A stretch of DNA of 64,000 nt, taken from assembly GCA_944322725.1 (NCBI GenBank), contig CALUPU010000003.1, positions 124,001 through 188,000 on the forward strand, in the 5' to 3' direction. The notes beneath the pieces are model-generated. The model worked only from the letters and a program-made list of their open reading frames with translations. It was not told where the DNA came from and ran no database searches. This stretch comes from Candidatus Gastranaerophilales bacterium (lineage in GTDB: Bacteria > Cyanobacteriota > Vampirovibrionia > Gastranaerophilales > Gastranaerophilaceae). The stretch's first letter is position 1. Each line of letters opens with the position of its first letter. A program made the translations under genes and the position numbers. Of this stretch, positions 5,476 to 38,576 are shown piece after piece.

Positions 5476-7914
5476 TTAGTCATTGTTTTCAGTTTTTTCA
5501 GGAATTCTCATTGCATAGAAGCTTCTCCATACAAACACCAATGCGATAATCAGGAATACAACACCTGCAATAGGCGCAATCTGTCTGAAAGATTCATTGA
5601 TAGAGATTTCCATAGCCAATAAACCGAATAAAGTTGTGAACTTGATAATCGGGTTCATAGCTACTGAAGAAGTATCTTTGAACGGGTCGCCTACTGTGTC
5701 GCCTACTACTGTAGCATCGTGCAAAGGAGTACCTTTTTCACAGAGGTCGCATTCAACGATTTTCTTAGCGTTGTCCCAGCATCCGCCTGCGTTAGCCATA
5801 AATACAGCCTGGAACAAGCCGAATACGGCAATTGCAATCAGGTAGCTTACGAAGAAAGCTACAGGAGCAACTGTTTTAGCAGTAGGTGCTGATAAACAAG
5901 CGTAAGCAAGAGCAAAAGCGAATAACGCGATGAAGATGTTAACCATACCTTTTTGTGCGTATTGAGTACAGATTTTAACAACTTCTTTTGAGTTTGCTAC
6001 GTTTGCTGATTTAACGCTTTCATCATCAATTTTGATGTGTTTTTTGATGTATTCAACAGCTCTGTATGCACCGGTTGTAACAGCCTGCATAGATGCACCT
6101 GAGAACCAGTAAATTACAGCACCGCCGGATAAGAATCCTAAAATAGTATAAGGATTCAAGATATTCAATACAGCTTCAGGCTGAATACCCAGTGTATTTT
6201 TGATAACCAGAATCAATGAGAAAATCATTGTTGTGGCACCAACTACAGCTGTACCGATAAGAACCGGTTTAGATGTAGCTTTGAAGGTATTGCCTGCGCC
6301 GTCGTTTTCTTCTAATTGCTGTTTAGCAACATCGAAGTTAGGTTTGAAACCAAAGTCTTTTTCGATTTCTTCTGAGATGCCTTCTCTTTCTTCAATCAAA
6401 GACAATTCATAAACAGATTGAGCGTTATCTGTTACAGGACCGTAGCTGTCTACAGCAATTGTAACAGGACCCATTCCCAAGAAACCGAAAGCAACAAGAC
6501 CAAACGCAAATACTGATGCATAAATCATTACTGCGTCAGGAATCATTGTGCTGAAGTAGTATGCCAATCCCATTAAGAATACGATTACCATACCAATCCA
6601 GAATCCGGAGAAGTTACCGGAAACAATACCTGAAAGGATTGTTAAAGAAGAACCGCCTTCACGTGAAGCTGTAACAACTTCTTTTGTATGAATAGCGTTC
6701 GGACTTGTAAAGATTTTTGTAAATTCAGGAATCAAAGCAGCACCGAGTGTACCGCAAGAAATGATACCTGCCAATACAAGCCAGAGGTTTCCTTCCAAAC
6801 CGCCCAGTAACCATTTGCTTACGCCGAATGTCATAGCTATAGAAAGGATAGATGTTAACCATACAAGGTTTGTTAAAGGTTTTTCAAAGTCAAGTTTTTC
6901 AGCTTTGCCGAAAATCACTTGTGTCAAACCTGTGTTAATCCAGTATGCAACAACAGAAGTCACAATCATTAAGAATCTCATTGTGAAAATCCAAGTTAAC
7001 AACGGGATTTGATATTGAGGGAATACACCCAGCAAGATAAATGAAACGAGAGCAACACCTGTTACGCCGTAAGTTTCGAAACCGTCAGCTGTAGGTCCGA
7101 TAGAATCGCCTGCGTTGTCACCTGTACAGTCAGCGATTACACCGGGGTTTCTCGGGTCATCTTCTTTAATTTTGAATTGAATTTTCATCAAGTCGGAACC
7201 GATATCGGCAATTTTTGTAAAGATACCGCCTGCTACACGAAGAGCGGAAGCACCCAGAGATTCACCGATAGCAAAACCGATAAAGCAAGCACCTGCCAGA
7301 TGTCCTGGGACAAACAGCAAAATAACAAGCATCATGATTAACTCAACACTAACGAGTAATACACCGATACTCATACCTGCTTTTAAAGGAATGTTTAAAA
7401 CCTTTAAAGGATTAGCTTCAAGAGAAGCAAAAGCAGTTCTTGCGTTAGCAAGTGTATTCATTCTGATACCGAACCATGCTACACCGTAAGAACCGAGAAT
7501 ACCGATTACAGACCATAAAAGGATTAATCCCACCCCTTTAAAGCCCATTTGCTGCAAGTATCCGAAGTAAAACGCAATACAAGCACCAATCAGTACTTCT
7601 AATGCAAGTAAGAATTTACCCTGTTGAATCAGGTAAGTCTTACAAGTTTCAAAAATTGTGTTTCCGACATTAGCCATAGCTTCATGAACTTTGTAGTTTT
7701 TGACTTTGATAAACTCTATCAAACCAAAAACCAAGCCCAGTACGGAAATAGCGATACCAATCAAAAGCAGATTAAAGCTTTGAGGGTCGCTTGAAAGATT
7801 TGGTACTACCAAATCGGCTTCCCCTGCGAATGCAGAGTTTGCTGCCAAAAACACGGCAAATGCACTAAGCATGCCTGCTTTAAGCAGTTTGGACCATTTT
7901 TCTAAGATAGCCAT
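5476..7914 (-). CDS. hppA: Divergent membrane-bound ion-translocating pyrophosphatase
   Basis: M-PPases couple pyrophosphate hydrolysis to H+ or Na+ export through about 16 helices. The 812-residue length fits. Family motifs are present but altered. The first acidic motif is DIGSDLMK (237-244) where most members have DxGADLVGKVE. EDDPRNPGVIAD follows at 251, then GDNAGDSIGPTADGFETYG (265-283). GNTFKATSKP (541-550) has Lys at the position that distinguishes K+-independent enzymes. GDTVGDPFKDTSS (738-750) is near the end. Residues 1-30 look like a cleavable signal (AANSAFAGEA), an unusual extension. A divergent H+-PPase subfamily known from green sulfur bacteria is, as I recall, the closest match. 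The ATG follows AAGGGAG. Confidence 0.93.
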   Translation of the reverse strand: MAILEKWSKLLKAGMLSAFAVFLAANSAFAGEADLVVPNLSSDPQSFNLLLIGIAISVLGLVFGLIEFIKVKNYKVHEAMANVGNTIFETCKTYLIQQGKFLLALEVLIGACIAFYFGYLQQMGFKGVGLILLWSVIGILGSYGVAWFGIRMNTLANARTAFASLEANPLKVLNIPLKAGMSIGVLLVSVELIMMLVILLFVPGHLAGACFIGFAIGESLGASALRVAGGIFTKIADIGSDLMKIQFKIKEDDPRNPGVIADCTGDNAGDSIGPTADGFETYGVTGVALVSFILLGVFPQYQIPLLTWIFTMRFLMIVTSVVAYWINTGLTQVIFGKAEKLDFEKPLTNLVWLTSILSIAMTFGVSKWLLGGLEGNLWLVLAGIISCGTLGAALIPEFTKIFTSPNAIHTKEVVTASREGGSSLTILSGIVSGNFSGFWIGMVIVFLMGLAYYFSTMIPDAVMIYASVFAFGLVAFGFLGMGPVTIAVDSYGPVTDNAQSVYELSLIEEREGISEEIEKDFGFKPNFDVAKQQLEENDGAGNTFKATSKPVLIGTAVVGATTMIFSLILVIKNTLGIQPEAVLNILNPYTILGFLSGGAVIYWFSGASMQAVTTGAYRAVEYIKKHIKIDDESVKSANVANSKEVVKICTQYAQKGMVNIFIALFAFALAYACLSAPTAKTVAPVAFFVSYLIAIAVFGLFQAVFMANAGGCWDNAKKIVECDLCEKGTPLHDATVVGDTVGDPFKDTSSVAMNPIIKFTTLFGLLAMEISINESFRQIAPIAGVVFLIIALVFVWRSFYAMRIPEKTENND

Positions 7915-22833: not shown

Positions 22834-23769
22834 ATGGGAAACAAAATGATAAAATACGCTGTTAATTTAATTAAGAATACTTTTCACCCTTTACAAATTG
22901 CCGAATCTGCTCATGTTGAGCACGGCCAGCTTGTTCTTGTAAGAACAGAAAAAGGCGAAGAAGTTGCAAAGGTTTTTGTTGTAAACCCTCTTATTGCAAA
23001 AGCATGGGAAGCAAAAATGCCGGAATCAGTTCCGCTTATAAGAGTGCTGGGACAAAAGGATTTAGAAACCCTTGAAGAATTAAAAATAGCAGAAGCTGAG
23101 GCTTTTAAAACCTGCAAAGAGCTCGTAGCCCAACACAATCTGCATATGAATCTTGTGCAGACAAAATATACCTTTGACAGACGTAAAATTACATTTTATT
23201 ACACAGCACCCGAACGTGTTGATTTTAGAGGGCTTTTAAAAGACCTTACACAGGTTTTTAAACGTGTAAGAATTGACCTTAGACATATCGGTGTAAGAGA
23301 CGAAACCTCGTTGCTTGAAGGCAACGGTCTGTGCGGAAGACCGTTTTGCTGTTGCACTTTTTTGAGAAAATTTGACTCAATCAATATTAAGCTTGCAAAA
23401 GATCAGGGAATGCCTATAACACCCGGCAAAATTTCCGGCACCTGCGGAAGACTTTTGTGCTGCCTTAACTATGAATACAAAAACTACATTGACGCAGCTA
23501 AAGACATGCCGCCAATCGGTTCCGGCGTTATGACTCCGGACGGTCTGGGCAGAGTCTGTTCTCTTCATTTCTTAAGCAATGAAATTGCTGTTAAAACAGA
23601 AGACGGAAAAATCAAAAACTTCAAAAAAGAAGAAATTGAAATGGTTGACGGTGATGTCAACATTGAAATAGACATTCAAGATACTACTGTTTATCAAGAA
23701 CAGTCTGATTACAATGTTGATATAAAACAGCTTGAAGATGATAGAAACAGCTCAACAGGCAATGTATAG
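22834..23769 (+). CDS. ricT: PSP1-domain protein, RicT/YaaT-like
   Basis: The protein matches the PSP1/RicT family. In Bacillus RicT joins RicA and RicF in a complex carrying Fe-S clusters that guides RNase Y processing. The cysteine pattern is intact: GLCGRPFCCCTFL (about 172-184) and GTCGRLLCCLNYE (about 206-218). The upstream half has the conserved FDRRKITFYYTAPERVDFR. The acidic C-terminal 50 residues are an extension. The start may be the ATG at 22834 or the one at 22846, which has GGGA six bases ahead. It is followed by the FlhA-domain gene after 111 nt on the same strand. Confidence 0.88.
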   Translation: MGNKMIKYAVNLIKNTFHPLQIAESAHVEHGQLVLVRTEKGEEVAKVFVVNPLIAKAWEAKMPESVPLIRVLGQKDLETLEELKIAEAEAFKTCKELVAQHNLHMNLVQTKYTFDRRKITFYYTAPERVDFRGLLKDLTQVFKRVRIDLRHIGVRDETSLLEGNGLCGRPFCCCTFLRKFDSINIKLAKDQGMPITPGKISGTCGRLLCCLNYEYKNYIDAAKDMPPIGSGVMTPDGLGRVCSLHFLSNEIAVKTEDGKIKNFKKEEIEMVDGDVNIEIDIQDTTVYQEQSDYNVDIKQLEDDRNSSTGNV

Positions 23770-23880
23770 CGGATTTTGTGCGGACACGAAGCTGCCCATG
23801 TGAAGCAAAACCACGCTTTTGCTGAACGCCAATAATCCAAAACAAGAATAAAAAAAGAAAAATATGGGAATTATAAAAAT

Positions 23881-25341
23881 ATGAAATCAACGAGAATGCA
23901 ATACTGTATTAAAGCAGTTCCGAGCGATGATACCTTTCAGATGGAGTCGCTTTTAAATGAGATGTCCTCTTTAGGCTGGGAACTTTATACAATGCACGAG
24001 GTAGAAGGTGACGAAGGCTACAACTATAACTGCATTTTTGTAAAAGAGTGTGATGCAGTTCAGGAGAACGAAGATGATGACGAAAACATTTTCGGCTACC
24101 AGTCGCAAATGCAGAAAATGATTCAGTCTCAAAACGAGCCTTATGAGTTGTGCGTTGAAATACAGAGAAAAATTAAAGATAAAAGAAAAAAAATAAACAG
24201 CATAAAATCTCTCATTGATGAAACAAACGAAACTCAAAGACAAGAACTCAACAATGAAATGTACAAATCAATTGAAGAACTGAAAGAACTCAAAAAGCAG
24301 CTTCAAGATACAATTTCGCCGGAAATTATGCTGGACAAAATCGGCGAAGACAAAATAAAAATTAAATTGAGTGAAGAAAATATAGAGCTTGTTAACCCTG
24401 ATATGGATGCAAATCTTGTGGCTCAAACAGTAAAGGTAAGACAAACTCTTGTTGAACAACTCGGTTATATAATACCCAAAATCCGATTTGAAAATGACGA
24501 GACTTTGCAGGCTAACGAGTTTGAAATCGATGTAAGAGGCGTCTGTGCAGCAAAAGGCGTTGTCTTTAACGGATACTATATGTTCTTTAAAGACGACCTC
24601 AACCTTGATAAGCCTGCAAAAGACATGATTAAAGACAAAGACCCTATCACAGGAAAAACCGTGTACTGGGTACCTGTTGAAAAGACAAAAGACTTCTGGG
24701 CACAGGGCTATGACTCATCTCAGGTTATTGCACGTATTTTGGAATATGTCTGCATAAAAAATGTTGATGAGATATTTGATTACAACGATATAAACAATTA
24801 CATTGAAATAGTAAGCGAAGATAATCTTTACTTGATAGAAAATATAGTGCCTGATTTTGTTTCTATAGCAGAATTGAAATATATTTTAACAAGCCTTATA
24901 AAAGAACGTGTTTCTATAAAAGATATTGTTTATATATTTGAAAAAATCAACGACTTTGCCGATGAAGAAACAAAAGAAGATCTCTTAAGCAGGGTAAGAC
25001 ATTCGCTTTCGCGCCAGATATCAAAAAGTATTGCTAATGAAAACAATCTTATACAGGCATTTGAACTTTCAGAAGAGTCTGTAAAATATCTTTCATCAAA
25101 AATTGCAGGCAAAAGTACAGTTATAAGAATAGACAATACAAAAATACAAACAATAGTAAACAACATATACACTGTAATAGACAAACACAATATTAACGCA
25201 GATGAGATTGTTGTAATTGTTCCTATGGAAATAAGACAGGTCACAAGTGTCGTTTTATCGCAGCTTATGCCAAGTGTAAAGGTAGTTGCAAAAGAAGAAA
25301 TTGCAAACGGATATACAACAGAGATTTACGACAGGGTTTAA
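23881..25341 (+). CDS. Soluble FlhA/SctV cytoplasmic-domain protein with DUF4177-like head
   Basis: Residues 1-56 resemble DUF4177 (LLNEMSSLGWELYTMHEVEG, then CIFVKE). An acidic linker and a coiled coil (about 92-143) follow. From about 150 to 475 the sequence follows the cytoplasmic domain of the type III export gate FlhA/SctV: a D1-like segment ending LGYIIPKIRFENDE (194-207), FEIDVRGVCAAKGVVFNGYY (214-233), VYWVPVEKTKDFWAQGYDSS (261-280), LIKERVSIKDIVYIFEKIND (339-358) and LLSRVRHSLSRQIS (368-381), then IVVIVPMEIRQVTSVVLSQL (443-462). The eight-helix membrane half is absent; no hydrophobic segment exists. No other flagellar machine gene is in the window. Ends 4 nt into tspO (convergent). 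Confidence 0.75.
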   Translation: MKSTRMQYCIKAVPSDDTFQMESLLNEMSSLGWELYTMHEVEGDEGYNYNCIFVKECDAVQENEDDDENIFGYQSQMQKMIQSQNEPYELCVEIQRKIKDKRKKINSIKSLIDETNETQRQELNNEMYKSIEELKELKKQLQDTISPEIMLDKIGEDKIKIKLSEENIELVNPDMDANLVAQTVKVRQTLVEQLGYIIPKIRFENDETLQANEFEIDVRGVCAAKGVVFNGYYMFFKDDLNLDKPAKDMIKDKDPITGKTVYWVPVEKTKDFWAQGYDSSQVIARILEYVCIKNVDEIFDYNDINNYIEIVSEDNLYLIENIVPDFVSIAELKYILTSLIKERVSIKDIVYIFEKINDFADEETKEDLLSRVRHSLSRQISKSIANENNLIQAFELSEESVKYLSSKIAGKSTVIRIDNTKIQTIVNNIYTVIDKHNINADEIVVIVPMEIRQVTSVVLSQLMPSVKVVAKEEIANGYTTEIYDRV

Positions 25342-25736
25342 TTCATTTCACATATATACAAATTTATTGCAGATGCATATGCTGACCAGAAAAGATACGG
25401 TATCAGCAGAATCGACGCGTAAAAAGATATTGGGTAATAAACAATTATCATTGCAATTATGCAGAAAAACAACAAAACACTTATTGCAAAAGCCGCGCAT
25501 ATCTTTTGTTTTTTAAAAAACACAGGCATCCATGATAAATTTAAAATCATTTGTATCGAAAACAAGATATAAGCAGCCGGTTTTAGAGGATGAAAAGGGG
25601 CTTTTATAAGCAAAGCCAGTGATATAAAAAGCAAAATATATATAATTGTCCAAACCGGTGCAAAAAGCCACGATGGAGGCAGAAAAGGAGGCTTTTTCAA
25701 ATTTTTATAAAAGTTTGTTTCAGCAGGTTTGTCCAT
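25338..25736 (-). CDS. tspO: TspO/MBR-family membrane protein
   Basis: The 132-residue protein has five predicted helices and the family signatures: FYKNLKKPPFLPPSWLFAPV near the start (proline-rich loop and PVWT), LNLSWMPVFF in the middle and IPYLFWSAYASAINLYI at the end (the WxxxAxxxN motif). TspO binds tetrapyrroles and cholesterol-like ligands and acts in stress signalling; its role in this anaerobe is open. No ribosome site is visible. A TAATCT hexamer ends six bases before the ATG, which suggests a leaderless transcript. Confidence 0.9.
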   Translation of the reverse strand: MDKPAETNFYKNLKKPPFLPPSWLFAPVWTIIYILLFISLALLIKAPFHPLKPAAYILFSIQMILNLSWMPVFFKKQKICAAFAISVLLFFCIIAMIIVYYPISFYASILLIPYLFWSAYASAINLYICEMN

Positions 25737-36348: not shown

Positions 36349-36432
36349 CAGTATTTTTTATGCTTTTTCGACAAAGTTATAAAATTTTACAAAAGTTTAT
36401 AAAAAATTATTGCAATATAATTTATTTTTTCA

Positions 36433-36461
36433 TTGCGAAAGACAAAATTATTAATTATAAT
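36433..36461 (+). promoter_or_regulatory. Promoter predicting a leaderless cyclase-like gene
   Basis: TTGCGA (36433-36438), a 17-nt spacer, TATAAT (36456-36461), then six bases to the ATG at 36468. No ribosome site is present. Confidence 0.65.
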
Positions 36462-36467
36462 ACCCCT

Positions 36468-38576
36468 ATGAATTTTAAAGTTGAGTATATAAATAAATTA
36501 AAAATTACAATAACAACATTTTTGATTATTTTATTATTCCTTTTTGCTTACTTTTTCAAAGATGTATTTAACTATTTTGAAAATAAATTCATTGATTTTC
36601 GAAGCTATTTGAGCACTGACGGCGGGCTGTACAAACATAAATTTAAACACGCCGATGAAAATATTATTATTCTCTCGGTTAATGATTTAACCCAGTACGA
36701 AGCTTCACATTCCTCGGAACTAAATCTTACGCGCTGGCCATGGTCTCGTGTTGTATGGGCTAAAGTAATAAACTTTTTGGAAGCACAAAAGCCCAAGGTG
36801 CTTATTGTAGATTTGAATTTCTCAAACTATGAGGATTTATCCAGAAATTATACTTCACCTGACATGGTTCTGGCTGATACAATCGGGTACTATGATAATA
36901 TAGTTCTTGCAACTGCATTAAGAACGCCTTTTTCTGAAACGGAAAATGTTGACCCCGCAAAAATTCTTGATAACTTTGAAAACCCATATAATCCTGCAAG
37001 CAACACATTGAATATGTATATAGACAACAAGCTTATTGATAAAAACATTGCATATTTTTCACACACGCCAATACCAAATATTTTTACAAACAGCACAACA
37101 ATGGGTGTAACAAATCTTGTCACTTCAAAGAATAAAGAAACAAACATCCGATACTCCCAGCCCGTATACAAGCTTATTAAAGGCAACAAAGAGTATTACA
37201 TACCTTCTATAGCTCTTGGTGCATTGCTAAAAAAAGAAGGTATCGGCAAATTAGCGGAAGAAATACCTATTGAAAACAACATTCTAAAAATAGGAAAGCA
37301 CAGAATTCGTCTTGATGATAACGGGCAAGTACTTATAAACTGGCACGCTCACGGCAATGCATACACAGATATTCCGATAAATTCAATACTTTTGAGTATG
37401 GTAAGAGGCACAAATTATTTTGAATATGACAACAAAAAATTTCCGCTTAATTTCTTTAAGGACAAAATAGTAATTATTGCACAAACGCAGACAGGTATTG
37501 AAACACACAATACACCGGTGGCAAAAGACCTTGCTGATGCACAGATAAAGGCAACAATTATTGACAATTACATCAATGACTCAGACATAACAAACCACTG
37601 CAAAAGACCGTTTTTAAAGCATATAACGCCATATAAAGGAATAATACTGACATGCCTTTTCTGTTTTGCTGTAATTATTGTAATGTTAATTGCAACTAAT
37701 ATTCCTCTCGCATTTATTAACGGATTATTAATAATATTTATTTATATTATTTTAAGCGTATTATTATTCTGCCATCCTAAATACAGAATAATTATAGATA
37801 TGGCTCTTCCACTGTACTGGATTGGCTCGGTATTTTTAATTTCGTTTATTTTAAAACTTCACCACGAGTTCAAAAAGAAAAAGAAGATAGAAAGAATATT
37901 CGGCAACCTTGTTTCCGAAAAAGTATTAAAACAGCTTGTTACCAAACCTCACAGGCTTAATCTGAAATCAAAAGTTCAAAAAGTTACGGTAATGTCTTGC
38001 AACATATACAACAACCTGCAGATTTCAGAAGAACTTCCGCCTGAAAAATATGTGGAATTAATCAACAATATTTTTAATACGATTGAAAAAATAATATTCA
38101 AGTACAACGGAACAATTAATCGATTTGTCGGAAACTCAGTTCTTGTATACTGGGGATATCCGATTCATTCCAGAAAAGACAGTGAAAATGCAATCCGTGC
38201 AGCAATAGAAATTCAGCAAAAAATTGATGAATACAATGCAGGATTTAACAACATAAACTTTGAAGAATATGACGAACAGAACTTTGAAGAAAAAAATCCG
38301 GGTAAATATTCTATTAACGTCAAAATTGCAATCAACACAGGAGATGCTCTAATCGGGCAGATAGGTTCTTCGAGTGTATCTGATTTTACGGTACTTGGAG
38401 AAACTGTTGATGTTGTGGAAAGGATTGAAGCCGTCTGCAGCGAATTTGATAAAAATCTTATTGTCACGGAAAACACTCTTAACCAGCTAGATGAAAAAAT
38501 TCCGGCACAATACATCGGTCAGGTTCGTTTAAAGAATTCCGCTGAAAAAGTAAAAATATACGAGTTAAAAGTATAA
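36468..38576 (+). CDS. CHASE2 sensor with degenerate class III nucleotide cyclase domain
   Basis: 702 residues from the ATG at 36468; an upstream frame extension lacks support. One helix (13-32) precedes a CHASE2 sensory domain (FIDFRSYLSTDGG, then ENIIILSVNDLTQYE and RWPWSRVVWAKVINFL), followed by three helices (about 388-465). A class III cyclase homology domain spans about 500-700 (VTVMSCNI, NRFVGNSVLVYWG, DFTVLGETVDVVERIE). Both metal-binding aspartates are replaced by Asn: N512 in SCNI (usually ADI) and N556 in VGNS (usually GD). The transition-state Asn is Asp (VDVV). It is probably a noncatalytic sensor or effector rather than an active cyclase. Confidence 0.85.
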   Translation: MNFKVEYINKLKITITTFLIILLFLFAYFFKDVFNYFENKFIDFRSYLSTDGGLYKHKFKHADENIIILSVNDLTQYEASHSSELNLTRWPWSRVVWAKVINFLEAQKPKVLIVDLNFSNYEDLSRNYTSPDMVLADTIGYYDNIVLATALRTPFSETENVDPAKILDNFENPYNPASNTLNMYIDNKLIDKNIAYFSHTPIPNIFTNSTTMGVTNLVTSKNKETNIRYSQPVYKLIKGNKEYYIPSIALGALLKKEGIGKLAEEIPIENNILKIGKHRIRLDDNGQVLINWHAHGNAYTDIPINSILLSMVRGTNYFEYDNKKFPLNFFKDKIVIIAQTQTGIETHNTPVAKDLADAQIKATIIDNYINDSDITNHCKRPFLKHITPYKGIILTCLFCFAVIIVMLIATNIPLAFINGLLIIFIYIILSVLLFCHPKYRIIIDMALPLYWIGSVFLISFILKLHHEFKKKKKIERIFGNLVSEKVLKQLVTKPHRLNLKSKVQKVTVMSCNIYNNLQISEELPPEKYVELINNIFNTIEKIIFKYNGTINRFVGNSVLVYWGYPIHSRKDSENAIRAAIEIQQKIDEYNAGFNNINFEEYDEQNFEEKNPGKYSINVKIAINTGDALIGQIGSSSVSDFTVLGETVDVVERIEAVCSEFDKNLIVTENTLNQLDEKIPAQYIGQVRLKNSAEKVKIYELKV

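Follow-up and report, generated by a model that had tools for sequence, protein, structure and literature searches.

FlhA and SctV have been studied as a single chain in which the export gate is joined to the platform, and the FliJ/SctO stalk, a two-helix coiled coil, docks on the FlhA/SctV ring. The nonamer is held by D1-D3 contacts and the D4-D4 cleft receives the FliJ/SctO stalk (PMC7584215), the chaperone dimple of FlhA is composed of D456, F459 and T490 (PMC8166844), and GYXLI with G368 serves as the switch motif of FlhA (PMC9431611). The window, which is the whole 64-kb stretch of DNA analyzed here, lies on contig C3 of a 1.9-Mb Gastranaerophilales genome and contains a gene for a soluble paralogue of the FlhA cytoplasmic domain (FlhA-C), whose features are listed in Table 1. 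Two further, full-length FlhA genes of this genome lie on other contigs, one belonging to the flagellar gate (type B, C12) and one to a second apparatus (type A, C16). Our literature search, which left most subscription journals outside, returned no report of a soluble FlhA-C paralogue and nothing relevant on type III secretion in Vampirovibrionia.

Table 1. Features of the soluble FlhA-C paralogue gene and its neighbours, in window positions
Feature	Position	Strand	Basis
RicT/PSP1-family gene, upstream neighbour; linked in the window's genus only	22834..23769	+	
GGGA, weak ribosome-binding-like site, 11 nt 5' of ATG	23866..23869	+	sequence
Soluble FlhA-C paralogue gene, 486 aa	23881..25341	+	sequence, profile and structure matches; conserved in order
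Residues 1-58, DUF4177-like beta-alpha-beta-beta head; invariant L25, N26, W33, Y36, E40, I52, F53	23881..24054	+	sequence, model
Residues 76-145, helix and two-helix hairpin (coiled coil) in place of membrane half/linker; invariant P87, K97, I98, K109	24106..24315	+	model, alignment
Residues 158-230, subdomain D1, first part; S164 for G368 (GYXLI replaced), R187 (R391) kept	24352..24570	+	alignment
Residues 231-278, subdomain D2; D254 (D456) kept, T257 for F459, Y277 for V482	24571..24714	+	alignment
Residues 279-298, subdomain D1, second part; R285 for T490	24715..24774	+	alignment
Residues 299-377, subdomain D3; best conserved, mean column identity 0.71	24775..25011	+	alignment
Residues 378-486, subdomain D4; least conserved, 0.49	25012..25338	+	alignment
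TspO/MBR-family gene, convergent, overlaps stop by 4 nt; not a conserved neighbour	25338..25736	-	

Fold, functional sites and N-terminal additions

The open frame runs from an ATG start to a TAA stop with zero internal stops. The Pfam FHIPEP profile (PF00771) matches residues 126-476 with an E value of 2.3e-53, where only profile positions 303-654 of 657 are covered and the membrane half, about eight helices with the FHIPEP loop, is absent from the match. Likewise, TIGR01398 (FlhA) matches in its C-terminal half only (E 6.8e-48), and the score of 163 bits is below the NCBI equivalog cut-off of 772. Hydropathy analysis detected no transmembrane segment, the best 19-residue window being 1.38; the full-length FlhA proteins of the same genome reach 2.91 and 3.01, with 7 and 9 segments, respectively. 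Among solved proteins, FlhA cytoplasmic domains are nearest, and B. subtilis FlhA-C in the PDB gave 2.8e-25. An AlphaFold model built with 67 relatives as input had a pLDDT of 81.9, and all top Foldseek matches of the model were FlhA/SctV C-domains (E 9.9e-23). In structural comparison (VIA), residues 138-486 aligned with the V. parahaemolyticus FlhA nonamer (7amy) over 337 residues with Z 30.5 and rmsd 4.6, and comparison with 6ch2 gave Z 30.2 and rmsd 2.9. Both the FlhA cytoplasmic domain without a membrane half that the original prediction had described and the fold that it expected a structure search to recover are borne out by these matches. Judged from profiles and model, the paralogue is firmly predicted to be a complete four-subdomain FlhA cytoplasmic domain without the eight-helix gate.

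Compared with FlhA, the paralogue retains all four subdomains and 16 of the 39 positions universal in the compared FlhA proteins, including R391, G399, P403, W465, E547, D553, E559, R579, R655 and E676, whereas the eight-helix gate and FHIPEP loop are lacking, GYXLI and the dimple are replaced, and a head and hairpin are new. Since the membrane half is missing, the equivalog score is below its cut-off, and neither GYXLI nor the dimple is kept, the protein belongs to the FHIPEP superfamily through its C-domain without being an export gate of the FlhA or SctV kind. The cytoplasmic domains of SctV, YscV, MxiA and CdsV have the same fold (Z 22-29 for SctV-type domains; TIGR01399 match of 1.9e-28), although the likeness is weaker by sequence than that to FlhA and the paralogue has no membrane half. 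No injectisome-type gene was found near it.

In an alignment of 21 diverse family members (site residues are quoted in E. coli/Salmonella numbering), G368 of the GYXLI switch is replaced by Ser in 20, F459 by Thr or Ser with one Asn, and T490 mostly by Arg or Lys and otherwise by Leu, Gln or Ile, while H491 is lost. D456 (21/21) and W465 are invariant in the family. At positions 456/459/482/490/491, type B FlhA keeps E/F/V/T/H and type A mostly has D/Y/V/T/H. Because D2 carries invariant residues of its own (W263, W273 and G276), this subdomain is selected for some other property. The mean column identity of D1 and D2 is about 0.6, where the subdomain limits are presumably those of the Salmonella structure, and the position of D3 as the best-conserved subdomain is only suggestive of a D1-D3 homo-nonameric ring. 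Considering that F459 and T490 of the dimple and G368 of GYXLI are replaced and that D3 is conserved best, simple docking of export chaperones, a role offered in the original prediction, appears unlikely.

In the model, the head forms a beta-alpha-beta-beta fold at residues 4-58. It resembles the small DUF4177/Sp36 proteins in this fold and in the pattern LLNxMxxxGWELYxxxE...CIF, and differs from them in that it is always fused to FlhA-C. DUF4177 (PF13783) was matched in 17 of the 21 family members (best E 0.0015), with a weak match for the window copy (E 0.059, 14 bits against a cut-off of 25), and the Sp36 family matched at 5.8e-4, so the proposed DUF4177-like nature of the head is weakly but consistently recovered. 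To our knowledge, no function of DUF4177 has been described. A structure search with the head gave Z 6.5 at most, for the C-terminal domain of KCTD5 and for acetyltransferases; common arrangements also reach this level, and the matches were discounted. The following helices are modeled at residues 76-82, 87-112 and 117-145, and the hairpin within residues 87-145 accounts for the coiled coil noted at the outset. A helical hairpin on an FlhA-C ring domain has the general look of the FliJ/SctO stalk, from which homology does not follow, and a Pfam profile search found no FliJ match in the paralogue. The hairpin is unlikely to be a FliJ replacement, since FliJ-like genes of two types persist in many order genomes, with weak or absent matches in several flagellin-less ones. 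A hunt for repeated ARYLxLTARK proteins returned the window copy only.

Conservation, origin and the two export gates

Among the nearest 59 genomes (G000 counted), the paralogue is present in 54 of the 58 that belong to Gastranaerophilales, the exceptions being G003, G024, G025 and G055. In a class sample searched with the head and the start of the hairpin, one copy per genome was found in 143/144 order members and zero in other orders, and FlhA is present in other families of the class without the paralogue. A phylum sample gave 172 of 173 order genomes and one marginal match (E 6e-4, G345), and essentially none occurs in the phylum outside the order. The open frames are almost always 484-531 aa, and every head observed came with FlhA-C, save one contig-end truncation (G268). 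Within the genus, pairwise dN/dS was 0.05-0.06, a rough value with synonymous sites near saturation, and the gene is, by this measure, apparently under purifying selection and not decaying. The original prediction had called the gene intact and had asked about decay and about conservation of the architecture; the clean start and stop, the dN/dS and an order-wide family with a constant head and hairpin in nearly all order genomes uphold it on each point.

No other flagellar or gate gene was found in the 64-kb window by tblastn with 22 flagellar proteins of the lineage, as had been stated. The implied absence of an export apparatus, however, does not hold, because elsewhere in the source genome there are two gates along with two ATPases and a pair of MS-ring genes; FliP, FlhB and FliF have two copies each, none of them in the window. 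The type B set goes with flagellin, while the type A apparatus persists in genomes without it. Ten surveyed same-family genomes without flagellin (G023, G024, G025, G027, G028, G030, G031, G033, G034 and G035) have a single FliP, of type A, and the paralogue is kept in 8 of these 10, where type A is the only gate. Type B FlhA occurs in 39/144 order genomes (best match below 1e-240; count from our own table), and about 104 of the 105 order genomes without it have the paralogue, some of the type B absences perhaps being assembly gaps. Type A FlhA is very conserved (72-94% identical within the order). The gate and the FlhB of type A occur across the whole order, and all 15 order genomes checked had a type A FliF.

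In maximum-likelihood trees of the C-domain, the soluble FlhA-C family forms one clade (100/100, and 99/99 in a second tree). Type B groups with E. coli FlhA, and the soluble family falls with types A and C on the other side (split 87/100). The exact sister of the family is unsure owing to its long branch and to E. coli FlhA being flagged as a long branch, and its side is better supported than its position. Type C, found in six sampled genomes, joins an N-terminal domain of the spacer gene between type A fliF and fliH (blastp to that gene 1e-8 to 1e-45) to FlhA-C by way of a few membrane helices; its loci are sporadic (L119, L120, L121, L122, L123 and L130 in G012, G002, G008, G010, G004 and G034). 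A genome of family f11 (G089) encodes a 553-aa protein with apparently one N-terminal membrane segment and FlhA-C, together with shorter FlhA-C-like genes (L222:2796-4457(-), L227:289-1236, L225:151-1113). In family f9, a 289-aa FlhA-C-like gene of G086 (L223:4498-5367(-)) adjoins type A flhA in a FliF-X-FliH-FlhA cluster, and its tree place is unsure, with a very long branch. Since the f11 proteins group with the FlhA of family f12 and not with the soluble family, the domain has separated from the gate more than once, and all well-placed detached cases are on the type A side. The original premise that this domain is always attached to a membrane part therefore fails even among relatives, where detached and re-anchored forms are found.

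In terms of gene neighbourhood, a conserved operon with RicT was rejected because the linkage is confined to the window's genus. Most neighbours are housekeeping genes, and ClpP, BamA/Skp, a nucleoside phosphorylase and a 178-aa protein are recurrent ones in other clades. Only the linkage in family f7, where the paralogue gene lies directly upstream of fliJ-fliK-flgD-flgE, is informative, and it speaks for export in general and for the hook side in particular.

Candidate functions of the paralogue

As the best reading, held with about even confidence, we take the protein to serve the type A export platform as a soluble subunit, either an accessory part of the ring or an adaptor. The paralogue would have arisen from the type A FlhA lineage before Gastranaerophilales radiated, losing the eight-helix gate and linker and gaining the DUF4177-like head and helical hairpin. 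Most likely it is an accessory subunit of the platform with no gating role, whose D1/D3 body may sit alongside, on or within the nonamer formed by membrane-bound FlhA, above all that of type A. With the dimple and GYXLI switch gone, the added head and hairpin may instead recruit a partner or control which state the ring adopts. The type A apparatus, a second one derived from the flagellum, comprises FliF, FliH, FlhA, FliI, a FliMN-like protein, FliOPQR, FlhB, FliE and rod proteins. The accessory reading is based on the fold, the purifying selection and the order-wide presence as a single copy, on the occurrence of the type A gate across the order, on the placement of the clade on the A/C side and its retention where type A is the sole gate, on the recurrence of detached FlhA-C on the type A side (type C, and the G086 gene beside flhA), on the f7 gene preceding the hook genes, and on conservation being highest in D3, of the D1-D3 ring interface, with the dimple and GYXLI altered. 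A component whose ring-forming body is retained while its docking and switching surfaces are exchanged would suit these observations. Against it, the neighbours are housekeeping except in f7, whose hook genes belong to the type B side; a type A gate exists without the paralogue in G024, G025 and other orders of the class; and the ring-stabilizing linker residues E351, W354 and D356 are missing in the family, although they mostly differ in the local types A and B too. The earlier suggestions of a regulator of another secretion system or a repurposed ring scaffold are thereby narrowed to a subunit that plays an accessory part in the type A apparatus, a refinement that we would judge as likely to hold as to fail.

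A repurposed cytosolic scaffold or regulator with no tie to export, in which the FlhA-C body would provide a stable ring or platform to another process and the head would bind an unrelated partner, for example in RNA processing given RicT next door, is possible but rather doubtful. The mostly housekeeping neighbours, the adjacency of RicT in the window's genus, the near-universal presence in the order and the replacement of the export sites (dimple, GYXLI) would all suit it. However, the RicT linkage is limited to the genus, the f7 gene is linked to fliJ-fliK-flgD, other detached FlhA-C domains of the class stand beside or are fused to type A parts, and in the class sample the paralogue occurs only with a full-length gate gene, save in G239 and G138, where the full FlhA is missing or fragmentary, probably owing to assembly gaps. 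The same f7 arrangement upstream of fliJ-fliK-flgD-flgE would point to a part of flagellar (type B) assembly, such as control of hook-stage export with FliJ and FliK. This is unlikely, as the paralogue is kept in 8/10 flagellin-less genomes with no type B gate and in about 100 genomes that lack the type B FlhA, and the tree puts it with type A and not B.

A role as a soluble decoy, which would lower export by competing for FliJ or for export chaperones, is more improbable still. While it is soluble and its fold is that of the docking platform, the chaperone dimple is changed across the 21 diverse members (F459 to T/S, T490 to R/K) and conservation is lowest in D4, the subdomain that makes up the FliJ/SctO cleft (PMC7584215). 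As for a decaying flhA fragment, to which the missing N-terminal half could be ascribed, the dN/dS of 0.05-0.06 and the intact, constant head and hairpin across nearly all order genomes make its probability negligible, and a pseudogene or fragment was ruled out by dN/dS and distribution.

The source genome has this soluble ring-domain protein beside normal flagellar-type gates, and its retention in nearly every order genome suggests that the inner platform of the gate can be a separate, exchangeable part. A broader and tentative possibility is that the platform is modular in this lineage, in which membrane-less or re-anchored FlhA-C would co-assemble or stack with the membrane-bound FlhA of the flagellin-independent export apparatus into hetero-oligomers, with new docking heads replacing the dimple. 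A natural, order-wide separate platform domain in which the switch and chaperone site are replaced offers a way to probe the ring apart from gating and to look for mixed rings. A further point of interest is the second export apparatus of gut Gastranaerophilales, whose genes were earlier read as incomplete flagella.

Further features of the type A apparatus and the window

Incomplete sets of this sort have been taken as partial or reduced flagella (PMC4040986; PMC3787301), and Soo et al. 2013 suggested ongoing reduction (PMC3787301). In G041, a well-assembled genome, the type A cluster encodes FlgF/FlgG-like, FlgB-like and FlgC-like proteins, FliE, FliF, two proteins without assignment, FliH, FlhA and FliI, and type A FliMN, FliO, FliP, FliQ and FliR are encoded elsewhere in that genome; some of these names come from reading the sequences, domain checks having been made on equivalent genes of G027 and the source genome. 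Type A loci on contigs C16 and C8 of the source genome are L117:15624-19889, L118:1058-2686 and L170:8087-12108, and further loci are L172, L171, L178 and L179. A conserved type A gene of 319-338 aa occupies the fliG position and may be a FliG substitute (L172:7233-8249; L178:7872-8831(-); upstream of fliH on C16 in the source genome); a Pfam scan of one copy gave no match. A small gene lies between type A fliQ and fliR (L170:10971-11321; L171:8992-9360(-)), one copy of which shows a weak likeness to a secretin-type N-terminal domain (PF13629, 0.0014).

Elsewhere in the window, positions 36360-38576 encode a CHASE2 sensor with a class III adenylate/guanylate cyclase, here in a small gut genome, and positions 5476-7914 encode a membrane H+-pumping pyrophosphatase. 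Several flagellin-domain proteins of unusual length (open frames of about 600-1400 aa) are present in the window's genus, such as a 595-aa frame in G000 (C15:31261), with similar ones in G001, G011, G013, G014 and G022.
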